34,341 nucleotides of DNA from Patescibacteria group bacterium (GTDB lineage: Bacteria > Patescibacteriota > Patescibacteriia > Patescibacteriales > BM507), in assembly GCA_027858235.1 (NCBI GenBank), contig JAQIDC010000003.1, forward strand, positions 1-34,341. The letters run 5' to 3'. The notes beneath the pieces are model-generated. The model had not been told where the DNA came from. It did no database searches and worked only from the letters and a program-made list of their open reading frames with translations. A program made the translations under genes and the position numbers. Of this stretch, positions 6,565-18,040 are shown piece by piece (position 1 is the first letter of the stretch; the number at the start of each line of letters is the position of its first letter).

Positions 6565-7575
6565 ATGCAATATAAACATTTTACAATTGAAGAAAGAGAA
6601 ACAATCCAAGAAATGCTGTGGCAGAGAAAATCAATTCGAGCTATAGCTAAAAGATTAAACAGGAGTCCATCCTCGATATCAAGAGAGGTAAATAAAAACC
6701 GTGATTCTATTAACAGACGGCAGTATACTCCCAGAATAGCTCATGAAAAAGCTCTTATAAATAGATCAAGAAGAGGGAGAGAAAAACGTCTAAAAAGCGA
6801 AAAAGTCAGGTATTATGTAATTAAACATCTAAAGCTAGGCTGGTCGCCAGAACAAATATCAGGTACGATTGAGGATAATATTAATGAAACAATATCATTC
6901 GAAACAATCTATCAGTATGTTTATGCCCAAATACACAGAAATGGACATGGTTATACAAAGCCGGGTTGTGAAGATTTACGTCCTTACTTAGCTAGACGAA
7001 GAAAGAGAAGAAATCAACAAAGTGGACGAAAAAGTCACCGTATAGACAAAGGTCCATTGCCATCAATAGAGGATAGACCACAAGAAGTTGGTTTAAGAAT
7101 AGATGTTGGCCATTGGGAAAATGACCTAATAGTCTCCAATCAATCAAAATATAAATTAAAAACAATTAATGAACGTTACTCTGGACTAGTATTTATTAAA
7201 AAGATAAAAAATGGCACCATAGAGGAATCAAACAAGGCTATGATTGAAAGACTATCTGAAATACCAAGACAGTATTTAAAAACGCTCACAATGGATAGGG
7301 GCTCTGAAAATCTAGGCTATCAGGAGATTGAAAATACTCTAGGTTTTGATTGTTTTTATGCTCATTCGTATTGTTCCTGGGAGCGAGGTTCAAATGAAAA
7401 TCTAAATGGATTAATTCGCAGGTTTCTACCCAAGAAAACTGATTTTAGAATAGTCACAAATAATGATATTAAAAAAATTGAATACTTATTAAACTCTAGA
7501 CCAAGAAAAAGACTTGGCTGGAAGACACCTTATGAGGTATTCTATGAGATGACAGGTGTTGCACTTCAGAGTTGA
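6565..7575 (+). CDS. IS30-family transposase
   Basis: A full-length 336-aa DDE transposase. The N-terminal helix-turn-helix (IEERETIQEMLWQRKSIRAI, about 8-27, continuing through PSSISREV) binds the ends. The RNase H-fold catalytic triad is Asp187 (GHWENDLIV), Asp244 (TMDRGSEN) and Glu278 (RGSNENLNGLIRRFLPK), with 33 residues between the last two, the spacing of the IS30 family. No frameshift or missing catalytic residue, so it may be active. No Shine-Dalgarno site; the ATG is about 9 bases after the -10 box (TATAAT, 6551-6556), so the mRNA is nearly leaderless. Codon use is like its neighbours. Confidence 0.95.
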   Translation: MQYKHFTIEERETIQEMLWQRKSIRAIAKRLNRSPSSISREVNKNRDSINRRQYTPRIAHEKALINRSRRGREKRLKSEKVRYYVIKHLKLGWSPEQISGTIEDNINETISFETIYQYVYAQIHRNGHGYTKPGCEDLRPYLARRRKRRNQQSGRKSHRIDKGPLPSIEDRPQEVGLRIDVGHWENDLIVSNQSKYKLKTINERYSGLVFIKKIKNGTIEESNKAMIERLSEIPRQYLKTLTMDRGSENLGYQEIENTLGFDCFYAHSYCSWERGSNENLNGLIRRFLPKKTDFRIVTNNDIKKIEYLLNSRPRKRLGWKTPYEVFYEMTGVALQS

Positions 7576-7592: not shown

Positions 7593-7621
7593 TTGACAAA
7601 TATTTGCATGTGTGATATATT
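7593..7621 (+). promoter_or_regulatory. Near-consensus promoter for RNA copy A/B
   Basis: TTGACA (7593-7598), exactly 17 bases, TATATT (7616-7621). The transcript start would be near 7628, about 15 bases before the stem of RNA copy A. No ORF or ribosome site follows. Confidence 0.8.
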
Positions 7622-7643
7622 ACAATGTTGTTTAAAAAAAGAA

Positions 7644-7762
7644 TATAAATCAATTGAAACGGGGAGGCACGACAAGCATAGGGATTGGCGAGAGGGTACT
7701 CCGGCTACGGCTAGACTGCATCTAGCAAAGATTCTTTGCCTGCCCGTTTTAGTTGATTTATA
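7644..7762 (+). ncRNA. Novel structured RNA, copy A
   Basis: No known RNA family recognised. The 5' arm 7644-7669 and 3' arm 7737-7762 pair over 26 positions with one G-G mismatch and two G-U wobbles. Inside, the segment GGCACGACAAGCAT (7666-7679) is shared with copies B and C. An inner helix forms from AGGGATT (about 7680-7686) and GATTCTT (7730-7736). A small hairpin GGC-UACG-GCU (about 7703-7712) is followed by GCTAGA/TCTAGC pairing as an alternative. GC content is well above neighbouring coding DNA. No ORF. It is driven by the promoter at 7593 and followed directly by copy B. Confidence 0.75.
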
Positions 7763-7770
7763 AAGGTCCC

Positions 7771-7870
7771 CTTTGGTGGGGGAGGCGCGACAAGCACAGG
7801 GGTTTGCGATAGGGTTTATCTGGCTACGGCTCGATAACATCTAACAATAATTCTTTGCCTTCCACCAAAG
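7771..7870 (+). ncRNA. Novel structured RNA, copy B
   Basis: The closing stem CTTTGGTGG...GGAGGC (7771-7786) pairs with GCCTTCCACCAAAG (7857-7870) apart from a 2-base bulge; its primary sequence differs from A and C, so pairing and not sequence is kept. The conserved core is GGCGCGACAAGCAC (7784-7797). The inner helix is AGGGGTT with AATTCTT. The hairpin has UACG as loop, with the lower stem TATC...GATA: GGC/GCU as in A but different outer pairs. It begins 8 bases after the stem of copy A, so A and B probably form one tandem transcript. Confidence 0.72.
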
Positions 7871-7879
7871 ATGATCTTA

Positions 7880-7908
7880 TTGACAGGTTAAAAAATATTT
7901 TATAGTAT
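7880..7908 (+). promoter_or_regulatory. Putative promoter of the GC-rich RNA block
   Basis: TTGACA (7880-7885), 17 bases, TAGTAT (7903-7908). The -10 is weaker than at 7593. A transcript starting near 7915 would read through the folded block to the terminator at 8554. Confidence 0.5.
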
Positions 7909-7939
7909 TTATTGATGGTACATTAAATATAAATAAAGA

Positions 7940-7986
7940 TTAAAGTGTGTAGCTAAAGCTTAAGGAGTTTTAACTACACACTTTAA
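7940..7986 (+). other. 13-bp stem-loop
   Basis: TTAAAGTGTGTAG (7940-7952) pairs perfectly with CTACACACTTTAA (7974-7986) around a 21-base loop. It is followed by an AT stretch but only five Ts in a row, so it could be a weak terminator for A/B or the 5' domain of the next RNA. Confidence 0.6.
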
Positions 7987-7989
7987 ATA

Positions 7990-8546
7990 TATTTTTATTC
8001 GCCGCGATGTATATAGCATTGCATTCCTTTAATACCGCTCATGCCGAAGGAGATAAAAATGGCCCAAAACAAAGGACAGCCCAATGTTTAAGGTTCTAGT
8101 AGATGAAAAATCAATCTGCCGGCGCAATTACCTGGTCACGACCAACAAATAACCGGTCCGGCCCGCGGTAACGCCAAATTACGAGAGCTTCTCTCGTAAA
8201 ACATCGTATTGGAGGTCTCCATGAATCGACGCCCTCGCGACAGAATCTAGTTAGGCTCACCCACGCCTTCCCAGCGCAAAGTAGGTTTTATTTTGAGATC
8301 TTGCAGAAGAAGATAAATAAAATCTAAGGGTTTTTTAAAAAAGGAAGAAATGGGAGCGAAATCGCTTCCAGTGGAGCGGACTGAGGTCCGCAAGTTGCGC
8401 CCCGAGATTAATGGGGATGGCCATTACTGGTAAGATTAAATCCCGGTTTAATGGCTTCGAGAATTGGTCCTCGGTTCGCTTCACAAAAAAAGGGACGGGC
8501 CCTTGAACCCGAATCCAGCCAGGCACCCATTGAAAAGGGCGGTGCC
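7990..8546 (+). ncRNA. GC-rich folded non-coding block
   Basis: About 550 bases with no credible ORF on either strand and much higher GC than the surrounding genes, the usual mark of functional RNA in an AT-rich genome. Seen on the + strand: GGCG-(CAA)-TTACC (8121-8132) pairing with GGTAACGCC (8167-8175) around two inner hairpins; TTACGAGAG/CTCTCGTAA (8179-8199, perfect); GGGAGCG/CGCTTCC (8352-8369); GCGGAC-TGAG-GTCCGC (8376-8391); ATTAAA/TTTAAT near 8434-8451; GGCACC/GGTGCC (8522-8546). I looked for RNase P (GAGGAAAGUCC, ACAGAA...GCUUA), tmRNA (tag ending in Ala-Ala, T-arm), SRP RNA and 6S and could not make any fit convincingly. It may be one long RNA or two. Strand is inferred from the promoters and 3' terminator. 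Confidence 0.6.
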
Positions 8547-8553
8547 AAAAAAT

Positions 8554-8582
8554 AGCCACCTGGTTTATATCAGGTGGCTTTT
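8554..8582 (+). terminator. Terminator of the RNA block
   Basis: AGCCACCTG (8554-8562) and CAGGTGGCT (8571-8579), perfect 9-bp stem, 8-base loop, then TTTT. Confidence 0.85.
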
Positions 8583-8610
8583 ATCTTTCTAAAAATTTAT
8601 TTCATAGAAA

Positions 8611-8644
8611 AGACCTTGGAGGTCTTTAAGGACCTCCAAGGTCT
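8611..8644 (-). terminator. 14-bp perfect inverted repeat, likely terminator
   Basis: AGACCTTGGAGGTC (8611-8624) and its exact complement (8631-8644) around TTTAAG. On the minus strand it lies about 60 bases after the oxidoreductase stop and is followed by TTTTC, so it probably terminates that gene; it may work both ways. Confidence 0.65.
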
Positions 8645-8704
8645 AAAAGGTTTTAGATTGTAATGCATTTATTATTTATCTAAGAGTCTTTTTTTTATGA
8701 CAAC

Positions 8705-10063
8705 TTACTTTATTTTCTTCTTCTTAAAAAAATCCATTACCTTCCCCATAGCATCTTCACTGGCCATAACAATAGGATTCATAAATGGCCAAGGGCTGAG
8801 AGAGGGGTGAGCTATGTAGTTGTATTTCATTAATTTTAATATACTTAGCTTAAGACCTATTCCCATGCTAGCAATTTCTAGAAACCCTGTTACTCCATTT
8901 CCATAAGCTTCAGCGCCCACTATTTTCATTCTGGGTCCAGCAAAAATTAATTTAAATGAAAGCGGTTTTTTGCTTTTTAGGTCATCATAGACATTTGTCG
9001 TTTCAGCGTAGCCTGTAACAATGAATTTGAACTTCTTTTTTGCTTGATTTTCGTTTAAACCAACCTGGCCATATTCACGGCCGAGTATTTTAAAAGCAAA
9101 AGCATTTGTTGTCCCCTGATATTTGATAGGAAAGTTTGCAAGCTGGTAACCTACTATTTTTGCTTGCTGAATAGCAACACTCGCTAATTGACTAATAGTG
9201 TTCTCTCCTGTAATGGCTGAGACAGGCATAACACAATCACCGCAAGCAAAAATATTTTTGACATTTGTTTCCATCTTTTCATTAACAATGATGCCGTGAC
9301 TGCCAAGTTTTATTCCAGTATTTTTAGCGATCTCTATGTTTGGCTTAACTCCTGTTGCAATAATAACAATATCAGCTTCTAATTTTTCTTTTTTGTTGTT
9401 TCTTTTAATCTTAATTACTTTTTTATCTTTAATATCTTCAATTTCAATAATATCTGTATTAAATAAAATATTTATCTGATTGTCTCTTAGATGATTTACA
9501 ATCTTAGTAGAAAATTCTAAATCTGCCAAAGCAGGTGATATTCTCTCTGCTTTTTCAAGAATAGTTACATCTATGTTCTTTTCTCTGAATGCAGCAGCCA
9601 TTTCGCATCCTATAATTCCTGCTCCAATGACAATTGCTTTTTTAACATTTTTTAATTTTTCATCTATTTGTTTAATGTCCTTACTCTCTCTGACGGTGTG
9701 ATAATTATATTCAGTTAATCCAGGAATTTTTGGAACAAATGGTCTCGCGCCAGTAGCGATAACAAGATAGTCATAAACAAAAAAATTATTCTTATTTGTA
9801 ATAACCACTTTTTTTGCTGTATCTATACTTATCGCTTTTTCATGAACCACTTCAACACCAAAGTTTGTGATCATTGATTCTGCTTGAACAGCATCACTAA
9901 GTTTTGCTTGATCATTAATAACATAAGGAGAACTACAGCGACAATATATGTCTTCCTCTTCGGAGAGAATAGTGGCGCTAAATTTTTTTGGTCTTAATTG
10001 GGTAGATACAATTGCACTAAACATCCCGGCCCCACCACAACCAATAACTAATATTTTTTTCAT
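8705..10063 (-). CDS. FAD/NAD(P) disulfide-reductase-family oxidoreductase (Nox/CoA-disulfide reductase-like)
   Basis: A 452-aa flavoprotein of the pyridine nucleotide-disulfide oxidoreductase class. The FAD-binding GCGGAG is at residues 8-13, the NAD-binding VIGAGIIGCEMA near 146-157, and the second FAD motif FACGDCV near 272-278. The segment CRCSSPYVI places Cys43 where NADH oxidases and CoA-disulfide reductases carry the single redox-active cysteine (usually C-G-x-P-Y). It probably uses NAD(P)H to reduce oxygen, peroxide or a small disulfide, giving redox balance or oxygen defence. Single gene with its own promoter at 10091-10119. No ribosome site. The substrate is not determinable from sequence. 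Confidence 0.88.
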   Translation of the reverse strand: MKKILVIGCGGAGMFSAIVSTQLRPKKFSATILSEEEDIYCRCSSPYVINDQAKLSDAVQAESMITNFGVEVVHEKAISIDTAKKVVITNKNNFFVYDYLVIATGARPFVPKIPGLTEYNYHTVRESKDIKQIDEKLKNVKKAIVIGAGIIGCEMAAAFREKNIDVTILEKAERISPALADLEFSTKIVNHLRDNQINILFNTDIIEIEDIKDKKVIKIKRNNKKEKLEADIVIIATGVKPNIEIAKNTGIKLGSHGIIVNEKMETNVKNIFACGDCVMPVSAITGENTISQLASVAIQQAKIVGYQLANFPIKYQGTTNAFAFKILGREYGQVGLNENQAKKKFKFIVTGYAETTNVYDDLKSKKPLSFKLIFAGPRMKIVGAEAYGNGVTGFLEIASMGIGLKLSILKLMKYNYIAHPSLSPWPFMNPIVMASEDAMGKVMDFFKKKKIK

Positions 10064-10090
10064 ATTTAATTATATTTTTATTATAGACTT

Positions 10091-10119
10091 ATTATACAAT
10101 TTTTTTGATAAAACATAAA
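10091..10119 (-). promoter_or_regulatory. Promoter of the oxidoreductase gene
   Basis: On the minus strand: TTTATG (10114-10119), 17 bases, TATAAT (10091-10096). A second TATAAT lies about 10 bases closer to the gene. Confidence 0.55.
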
Positions 10120-10201
10120 GTTTTAGTTTAATAAGAACTTAATATTAGTGATTTATAATAAATATGAACAGTATATCCACTGTTTCTCCACTTTTATAGC
10201 A

Positions 10202-10230
10202 TTGACACAGGGTTTTAGTGATGATAAAAT
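10202..10230 (+). promoter_or_regulatory. Near-consensus promoter for RNA copy C
   Basis: TTGACA (10202-10207), 17 bases, TAAAAT (10225-10230). Expected start near 10237, just before the RNA stem at 10246. Divergent from the oxidoreductase promoter. Confidence 0.8.
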
Positions 10231-10245
10231 AATAACCCAATAAAG

Positions 10246-10371
10246 AAAGGTCATTTTAAACGGGCTAGGCACGACAAGCATGGGGATTTAACGAGAAGGG
10301 CGTAGTTGGCTAAGGCTAACTTGCAACTACTTTAGAATTTCCTGCCTACCCATTTAAGTTGATCTTTTTTT
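10246..10371 (+). ncRNA. Novel structured RNA, copy C (free-standing)
   Basis: Third member of the family seen at 7644 and 7771. The closing stem runs from AAAGGTCA...TTAAACGGGCTAGGCA (10246-10271) to TGCCTACCCATTTAA...GATCTTT (10343-10367), with a bulged C and wobbles. Shared core GGCACGACAAGCAT (10268-10281). Inner helix GGGGATT (10282-10288) with AATTTCC (10336-10342). The hairpin GTTGGC-TAAG-GCTAAC replaces the UACG loop of A/B, and an alternative GTAGTTG/CAACTAC pairing is possible. The T-run at 10365-10371 ends the transcript, giving a discrete RNA of about 130-135 nt with its own promoter and no ORF. Confidence 0.78.
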
Positions 10372-10377
10372 GTATTC

Positions 10378-10419: not shown

Positions 10420-12315
10420 TTATTGCACTATTTCTTCTGTACTTGTTGCTACTATTTCTTCTTCATCACTACTTAGTTTTTCAACCCCTATTAAACAAAC
10501 TTCTTGCCAGGGCACATAGTGAGAAGTAAATCTCTTTTCGACAACATTTTCTTCATCATATGTCACTGTATAATCAAAATAAGCATCAGCTCCATTGTGG
10601 GCATGCTCAGTACACCTTTTTTCGCCAACTGGAAGATTGAGAGTCTCGATTAGCTTGGTTGGCCCAGGTTTTGTAATGTTATAAATAGTTGGGTCAGTTA
10701 ACTCGACTATCCTACCATCTCGTGTCCCCCAAAAATCAAAATAAATATCATCTCCTTCTATTCTTGTCTGAATTAGAATGTTATCTTTAGTATCGTTTAT
10801 AAATTTGAAATCAGGCCAGGGATCATAAATAGTAGCATCTGTTCCAGCCGGCTCATAATATGAAACTCGATATGAATGATTTCTTCGCATAGTGACGGGA
10901 AGACCACTTTGAAGTACTGTCCTAAAGAGAGTTGTTCCTATTTGGCAGAGTCCTCCTCCGTATTCAGCAATAGTCTCATTTCCTTTTATAACAAGTTCTT
11001 GTAAATAACCACTATCTCCGTCAATTTCACCGAGAGCAGTCATAAGTGAAAACTCTTCATCAGGTTTTATAATAAGACCGTTAATTGCAGCCGCTCCAGT
11101 TGAGATATTATGTATTCTATTTGAAGGTGAACCACTAAAATCAGAATGACCGGTCCCAATTAATTCATTTATTCCGATATCGTTTACGTTCTGGGTGCGT
11201 AGCTTACTTTTTAATTCAGTTATAGCAAGGGTGATATTTTTTTCACCTTCTCCAATAAACTTATTTTCAAGAAGATTGAAGCTAGCATCAAAATTTACCT
11301 CAAGTCCATCTTTGCTTTGTTGAAATTCTACAACCCTACCATCTTTTATTTCAAATTTAGCATTTTGGGGCTCAATCTTAGTTTCATTAAAAATGTTTTC
11401 TTCAAAATAGCTTTTAACTTTGGATTCACTGAAACTAACAAATATTTTTTCTTTTTCAACGGAAGGATCAAAGGTGCTTTTAAGATCCAATAATCCTGCA
11501 AGGGTTTCTTTATCTATGGTCCAAGAATCATCTTTTGCTAATTTATTATCAATTTTTTCAGAATCAAACTTTATAATCAATGGAGCGTTTTCTATAATTT
11601 TTTCTGCCTCTTTTTCAAGTCCGGTGGTTTGATTTTTGTGTATAGTTGGTTTTTCAATCTTAGATATTAATTGAATATTAGAAGAATCGAAATATTTAAG
11701 ATTATTTTCTAGATTAATAATGGCAAGATTGTAGTCAATAACATTGCCAAATTTTTCTTCTTTTATAGTAAACTCCTTATCCTCATATTGTAAACTAGCG
11801 TTAGCAGGGACAACTTCAAATTTTTCAAAATTGCTTTTTAGGATTTTATAGATTTCTTCTTTATTTAAAGAAAAGAACAGAGGAGTTTGTTTTTTATTAG
11901 TAAAAAGGTTAATTTTATTTTTTAAATTAATAATTGGAGTGTCTTCTCTTCCGAGCTTTAGGGCCTCTTTTATTGATGAGTCAATATTAAAGTTAATTAT
12001 TTGATAAGCTAAGTCACCTTCAACAGAGGAGAGAGTTGGGAATATTTTGGTTTGTTTGTTTTGATATGAAAAAACAACTCCATTTTGATCTAGTGAATTT
12101 ATTTTGCTGTTTAGGATTTTCTCTGCTTCAATTAGGGTTTTCCCTCCAAGGTCGAGGTTGCCAATGTATACTCCTGGATAAATTTTGTCAGTATATTTTT
12201 TTTCAAAAATAAAATAAGAGCTAATAGCTACTGCGGTGGTTAAAACAAAAAAGGCCACTAAGACAAGCAACCATTTTAATATTTTTTTTGTTCGATGATG
12301 TTTAAAAATATTCAT
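10420..12315 (-). CDS. VanW-family envelope protein with peptidoglycan-binding-like repeats
   Basis: A 631-aa membrane-anchored protein. A basic start is followed by a transmembrane helix (ILKWLLVLVAFFVLTTAVAI, 13-32) with the rest outside. Residues 50-370 hold two YoaR/PG_binding_4-type units (GVYIGNLDLGGKTLIEAEKIL at 48-68 is the typical opening). The VanW domain covers about 390-530, with FSGSPSNRIHNI, GEFS-like DEEFSLMTALG, YGGGLCQIGTTLFRTVL, RRNHSYRVSYY and PAGTDATIYDP. VanW proteins occur in glycopeptide-resistance and Gram-positive envelope loci; their biochemical role is unknown, and a wall-linked function is inferred. Third gene of a coupled operon: its ATG follows directly on the DUF3006 stop. 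The C-terminus (SSDEEEIVATSTEEIVQ) is acidic and probably disordered. Confidence 0.88.
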   Translation of the reverse strand: MNIFKHHRTKKILKWLLVLVAFFVLTTAVAISSYFIFEKKYTDKIYPGVYIGNLDLGGKTLIEAEKILNSKINSLDQNGVVFSYQNKQTKIFPTLSSVEGDLAYQIINFNIDSSIKEALKLGREDTPIINLKNKINLFTNKKQTPLFFSLNKEEIYKILKSNFEKFEVVPANASLQYEDKEFTIKEEKFGNVIDYNLAIINLENNLKYFDSSNIQLISKIEKPTIHKNQTTGLEKEAEKIIENAPLIIKFDSEKIDNKLAKDDSWTIDKETLAGLLDLKSTFDPSVEKEKIFVSFSESKVKSYFEENIFNETKIEPQNAKFEIKDGRVVEFQQSKDGLEVNFDASFNLLENKFIGEGEKNITLAITELKSKLRTQNVNDIGINELIGTGHSDFSGSPSNRIHNISTGAAAINGLIIKPDEEFSLMTALGEIDGDSGYLQELVIKGNETIAEYGGGLCQIGTTLFRTVLQSGLPVTMRRNHSYRVSYYEPAGTDATIYDPWPDFKFINDTKDNILIQTRIEGDDIYFDFWGTRDGRIVELTDPTIYNITKPGPTKLIETLNLPVGEKRCTEHAHNGADAYFDYTVTYDEENVVEKRFTSHYVPWQEVCLIGVEKLSSDEEEIVATSTEEIVQ

Positions 12316-17967: not shown

Positions 17968-18040
17968 TGGAGATAGTAGAAGGATTTGAACCTACGACTT
18001 TGCATGCCAATGCAATACTCTACCACTGAGTTATACTATC
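17968..18040 (-). tRNA. tRNA with atypical anticodon arm (Gly-like body, GGC in loop)
   Basis: Minus strand: acceptor GATAGTA/TACTATC, U at position 73, encoded CCA, D-arm ACTC-AGTGGTA-GAGT, T-arm GTAGG-TTCAAAT-CCTTC with one T-T mismatch. The acceptor can extend to 9 bp with flanking GA/TC. The anticodon arm reads TTGCA-TTGGCA-TGCAA, a 5-bp stem with a 6-base loop, or TTGC/GCAA with 8 bases. GGC would mean Ala, but the body (U73, D-loop) is Gly-like. The complement of the arm would show GCC (Gly). Functional identity is uncertain. Confidence 0.75.

Follow-up and report, generated by a model that had tools for sequence, protein, structure and literature searches.

Within the DNA analysed (the window, 34,341 nucleotides) we identified three copies, here called A, B and C, of a rod-shaped non-coding RNA that represents a new class with no relative known so far; novelty of mechanism is not implied by this. 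It is a stand-alone, strongly promoted RNA that almost all members of one Patescibacteria class (ABY1-type) carry, as a rule in a single copy, and divergent relatives occur in at least one other class. We lean, with moderate confidence, towards a trans-acting function as RNA component of a ribonucleoprotein particle, with docking sites at a conserved bulge and at the base of the helix P4. The ncRNAs of Patescibacteria, a very large group most of whose members are uncultured, are, to our knowledge, little known.

A sequence-only reading of the window had assigned A, B and C to one structured RNA family, with long closing stems that are unlike in sequence but keep their pairing. The stems were seen on folding in all three copies, and the assignment was borne out by homologs, by covariation and by the folding z-scores against dinucleotide shuffles (A -7.4, B -3.5, C -6.5). 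The inner helix and the GGC-UACG/UAAG-GCU hairpin that the same reading described were found in 3/3 copies, with changes that keep the pairs. The first P2 pair, for example, is changed from G-C to A-U in A and B, a compensatory change. The core GGC(A/G)CGACAAGCA starts at 7666 in A, at 7784 in B and at 10268 in C. The copies are located as follows.

7644..7762, + strand: RNA copy A (folding, model match, alignment); P1 7644-7669/7737-7762, bulge 7670-7679, P2 7680-7689/7727-7735, P3 7692-7695/7721-7724, P4 about 7700-7705/7710-7715
7763..7878, + strand: RNA copy B (folding, model match, sister-species ortholog 86% identical); P1 7763-7787/7856-7878, bulge 7788-7797, P2 7798-7807/7846-7854, P4 7818-7824/7829-7835
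10240..10373, + strand: RNA copy C, the canonical class-wide copy (folding, pattern scan, model match); P1 10240-10271/10343-10373, bulge 10272-10281, P2 10282-10291/10332-10341, P4 10304-10310/10315-10321

Copy C is the canonical copy, and A and B are genus-level paralogs of a normally single-copy, class-wide gene. In the sister species the A-B-C order is preserved and B and C are separated by the same flavoprotein gene; the orthologs were 82% (A), 86% (B) and 93% (C) identical, with pair-keeping changes. This conservation indicates that A and B are maintained as paralogs. A transposase-like ORF at 6565-7575 with an HTH_38 domain, which we read as IS30-type, adjoins copy A and ends 69 nt before it, so that the RNA could have been imagined as part of this mobile element. 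However, the A-B-C array of the sister species has no transposase at the same site, and the RNA is therefore not part of the transposon. Together with the single-copy, class-wide distribution this comparison refuted a mobile-element RNA, to which we assign next to no probability. The spacer from copy B to the flavoprotein gene includes a segment, 7990-8590, that is richer in G+C and contains short ORFs behind ribosome-binding-like sites; this segment matched neither Rfam nor phage or plasmid DNA, and it is absent from the sister-species locus (L054). Elsewhere in the window, at 17968-18040, ARAGORN called a tRNA whose anticodon (gg) it did not resolve, and Rfam called a tRNA there as well.

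Throughout the class the fold follows the order P1, the one-sided bulge CGACAAGCAU, P2, P3 and P4. P1 is long and free in sequence save for its inner end, CA/UG. P2 opens with GG(R)(R)/YUUC, P3 is AGG/CCU, and P4 has the form N-GGY-NNNN-RCU-N, often with a UNCG-type loop as cap. The bulge sits on the 5' strand, where 10 nt face 1 nt on the opposite strand, and it is near-invariant (100-104/105 sequences per position). In alignment A6, which was fitted to the covariance model and comprised 105 sequences and 35 pairs, the covariation score was 0.484 as compared to 0.183 after shuffling and no more than 0.165 after sliding; the MAFFT alignment A4 agreed, with 0.538 against 0.212 shuffled. Changes on both sides were detected in 28/35 pairs of A6, standard pairing was kept in 86.8% of the cells, and the inner P4 pair was CG 55 times and UA 43 times. 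G-U cells exceeded A-C cells (604 against 124 in the 105-sequence alignment), and thus the sense strand is the + strand. The fold is maintained via compensatory changes, and the covarying stems on which the proposed family had been said to depend are present in the homologs.

In the second class the bulge is replaced by 3-5 nt, and it is thus not the universal core. For an alternative pairing of CAAG in the bulge with a 3' CUUG there was no covariation signal either way, both segments being invariant in the class, but UUCUUG is retained without CAAG in some second-class members. The bulge is 10/12 complementary to what we take to be a universal 16S segment, CAUGGCUGUCGU; chance is sufficient for this by a rough estimate, and the second class is without the bulge. 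Protein coding was considered and rejected, as the conserved AUG at the bulge end opens short frames only, which differ between homologs. Apical insertions of roughly 35-75 nt were observed in the P3/P4 region, outside the core, in six loci (L021, L022, L023, L024, L107 and L168).

Promoters of the type TTGACA-17-TATATT or TAAAAT at A and C, as well as an own T-run of C, had been noticed earlier, and we could read both from the sequence, the T-run as seven Ts. The transcription signals are listed below.

7593..7621, + strand: promoter of copy A, probably of the A-B transcript; TTGACA 7593-7598, 17 nt, TATATT 7616-7621, with extended -10 (TGN)
7942..7998, + strand: likely terminator of the A-B transcript, from sequence only; hairpin AAAGTGTGTAG...CTACACACTTT and then a T-rich tract
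10202..10230, + strand: promoter of copy C; TTGACA 10202-10207, 17 nt, TAAAAT 10225-10230, with extended -10
10365..10371, + strand: T-run on the 3' side of the P1 stem in copy C, with T-runs at the P1 3' end in homologs too

The promoter type of copy A was also found at its sister-species ortholog and at most homologs, the form TTGACA-17-TANNNT being close to consensus in most genes of the family. No separate promoter precedes copy B, which begins at the end of A, and A and B are thus probably transcribed together. The closing stem and U-tract of copy C appear able to act as an intrinsic terminator. Among 97 distinct loci a promoter score of at least 10/12 was reached upstream in 71, compared to 4/97 for shuffled sequence and 6/97 for the reverse strand; the spacing was nearly always 17 and most promoters had the extended -10 (TGN). 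A T-run directly after P1, the closing stem, was detected in 47/97 homologs. We concluded from the strong own promoter and the T-run after P1, next to the covariation-backed fold, that this is a stand-alone RNA gene. The total length of the RNA is estimated at about 130-180 nt, including an A/T-rich leader. In the homolog promoters an RTY (GTT/GTC/ATT) recurs about six bases past the -10 box, which suggests a conserved start-site element.

The exact core AGGCRCGACAAGCAYNGGG was found in 77/98 genomes of the order, and the reversed control pattern gave 0 matches. Genomes have a single copy, the exceptions being the present one with three and the sister species with two by this pattern and three by the model. 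A 20-mer exact scan of 84,980 species yielded 70 contigs, most of them named Falkowbacteria and others Komeili-, Kerfeld-, Jackson-, Uhr- and Veblenbacteria, taxa which we assume to be GTDB class ABY1; the rest were MAGs without a group name and one contig titled Planctomycetota. One record titled Planctomycetota bacterium Prado159 (L085) carries the canonical RNA with its promoter and is probably mislabelled or a contaminating contig. Beyond Patescibacteria the search consisted of the exact-pattern scan only, and no viral contig matched the core exactly.

It had been proposed to search with a covariance model beyond copies A, B and C, and this uncovered the family in nearly every class genome along with its divergent second-class relatives. 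Model R1 matched class members only, in 27/34 class genomes. Model R2, built from class-wide sequences, matched 33/34 sampled class genomes (two weakly), almost always with one copy, and also divergent members outside the class; the R2 search gave no match in one class genome, G288. In the second class, to which one R2 match outside the class belongs, 4/7 genomes have the divergent form, and with model R3 a further genome, G137, was matched as the fifth (2.5e-5). Weak matches outside both classes were obtained at L202 (in G269), at L206 (in G140) and in G126. L202 and L206 both have a promoter and a long rod with extra hairpins, and L202 has a T-run. By eye the G269 match looks genuine (promoter, P1, T-run), the G140 match is possibly genuine, and the G126 match is probably due to chance; the family may thus be wider than two classes. 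Two tandem copies on the minus strand (L108, 1508-1607 and 1723-1822) were observed, as an independent case, in the distant class member G423.

The gene most often found next to the RNA is of the VanW family, which was called by Pfam in the window and by a conserved motif elsewhere.

10420..12315, - strand: VanW-family gene (VanW + PG_binding_4, Pfam), convergent with copy C

Such a gene adjoins the RNA in 72 of the 85 loci with enough flank; it is convergent in 60, upstream on the same strand in 9 and downstream on the same strand in 3, and 13 loci have none nearby. In the second class vanW is again convergent, in three loci, at a distance of 10-41 nt. A functional tie, a terminator used by both genes or a slow rate of rearrangement may underlie the linkage. 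A regulator of this neighbouring cell-envelope gene, acting by antisense where the convergent 3' ends overlap or as a bidirectional terminator for both genes, would be in line with the frequent convergent arrangement in both classes, but we regard it as unlikely. Convergent adjacency is not fixed (60/12/13 among the 85 loci): the orientation varies, with vanW on the same strand, up- or downstream, in 12 loci, and antisense is therefore improbable as a general mechanism. In addition, the reverse strand lacks a promoter signal, some loci are without vanW nearby, and A, B and the sister-species C copy are not beside vanW. Antisense pairing with one gene would also not keep one bulge class-wide. 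The neighbourhood bears equally on a riboswitch or other cis-acting leader, which the strongly conserved, ligand-pocket-like bulge brings to mind. We consider this highly improbable, as no same-strand gene is consistently found downstream (vanW in 3 loci only), the commonest neighbour is convergent, and the RNA ends at its own T-run in many genomes.

The earlier statement that the family has no known match held when Rfam was searched. In Rfam 15 at the gathering score the window gave rRNA and tRNA only, relaxed thresholds on copies A, B and C gave nothing relevant, and neither did a search of 19 loci, nearly all holding homologs. No earlier description of the RNA was found in the part of the literature that was covered. 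A 6S-like RNA, that is an open-promoter mimic which binds RNA polymerase, would share the rod shape, the single copy and the strong promoter, and its niche looks empty, since Rfam 6S (RF00013) was found in 0/21 relatives, with a model that detects 6S in only 5/14 control genomes. However, a 6S RNA requires a large bubble in which both strands are open, whereas the bulge of the new RNA is one-sided (10 nt versus 1 nt) and measures only 3-5 nt in the second class. Moreover, the homologs gave no 6S match even at a relaxed threshold (E 0.5), and a 6S-like function appears quite improbable to us.

Size and rod shape are also similar to those of SRP RNA, and SRP RNA (RF00169) was detected in 0/21 relatives, so that the new RNA could be considered a replacement for it, or an extremely diverged form of it, in cells that have no canonical SRP. 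The Ffh M domain (SRP_SPB, PF02978), by which the RNA would be bound, was found in 1/380 Patescibacteria genomes and 0/57 class genomes as compared to 14/14 controls, which suggests that canonical SRP was lost in the phylum. There is thus no such protein to bind in the class, and Ffh is also absent where the new RNA was not found. A pattern for the SRP domain IV motif gave 2 matches in 21 genomes, neither at the RNA loci. An SRP-type role is very unlikely on these grounds. No mention of missing Ffh in Patescibacteria was found in the part of the literature that was covered. The apparent absence of Ffh, together with the new RNA, hints at a core machinery unlike that of textbook bacteria.

The reading as the RNA of a trans-acting particle follows from the near-universal retention in streamlined genomes, the constitutive-looking promoter and the invariant unpaired nucleotides on a rod. 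The housekeeping sigma factor would transcribe the RNA constitutively and in quantity, giving a short unstructured leader followed by the rod, and the RNA would then act in trans within the putative RNA-protein particle. The bulge is a candidate binding site: the main docking site would be formed by the invariant CGACAAGCAU together with the purine-rich first pairs of P2, GG(R)(R)/YUUC, and a second one by the invariant G-U/G-C step beside a mismatch at the P4 base. The long P1 would serve as a sequence-free handle and as terminator. The shortening of the bulge in the second class and the missing G288 match count against the particle, and the strong vanW linkage could indicate a local rather than a general role. 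A more far-reaching proposal is a core Patescibacteria particle, ancestral to several classes, whose housekeeping job falls in other bacteria to an RNA already known, SRP RNA or 6S for instance; the job might concern the ribosome, RNA polymerase or membrane targeting, among others. This we regard as possible but doubtful. One-copy retention in streamlined genomes and the strong promoter suggest that the RNA is probably an important cell component, and the covariance model makes it findable and testable in further genomes.

Among known systems, 6S RNA (RF00013) is likewise single-copy and rod-like, has a strong promoter of its own and measures about 110-180 nt. The new RNA differs from it in having no two-sided central bubble and no sequence or structure match, and its bulge is on the 5' strand only. 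The bacterial small SRP RNA, 4.5S (RF00169), is also a rod of about 100 nt from a single gene; it has a GNRA-capped domain IV, which the new RNA does not, and Ffh is not detectable in the genomes that host the new RNA. OLE, raiA, ROOL and GOLLD are orphan structured RNAs of unknown role. Compared to these the new RNA is much smaller and a simple rod, with no match among 4227 Rfam models, but like them it is a widely conserved stand-alone RNA with strong covariation.
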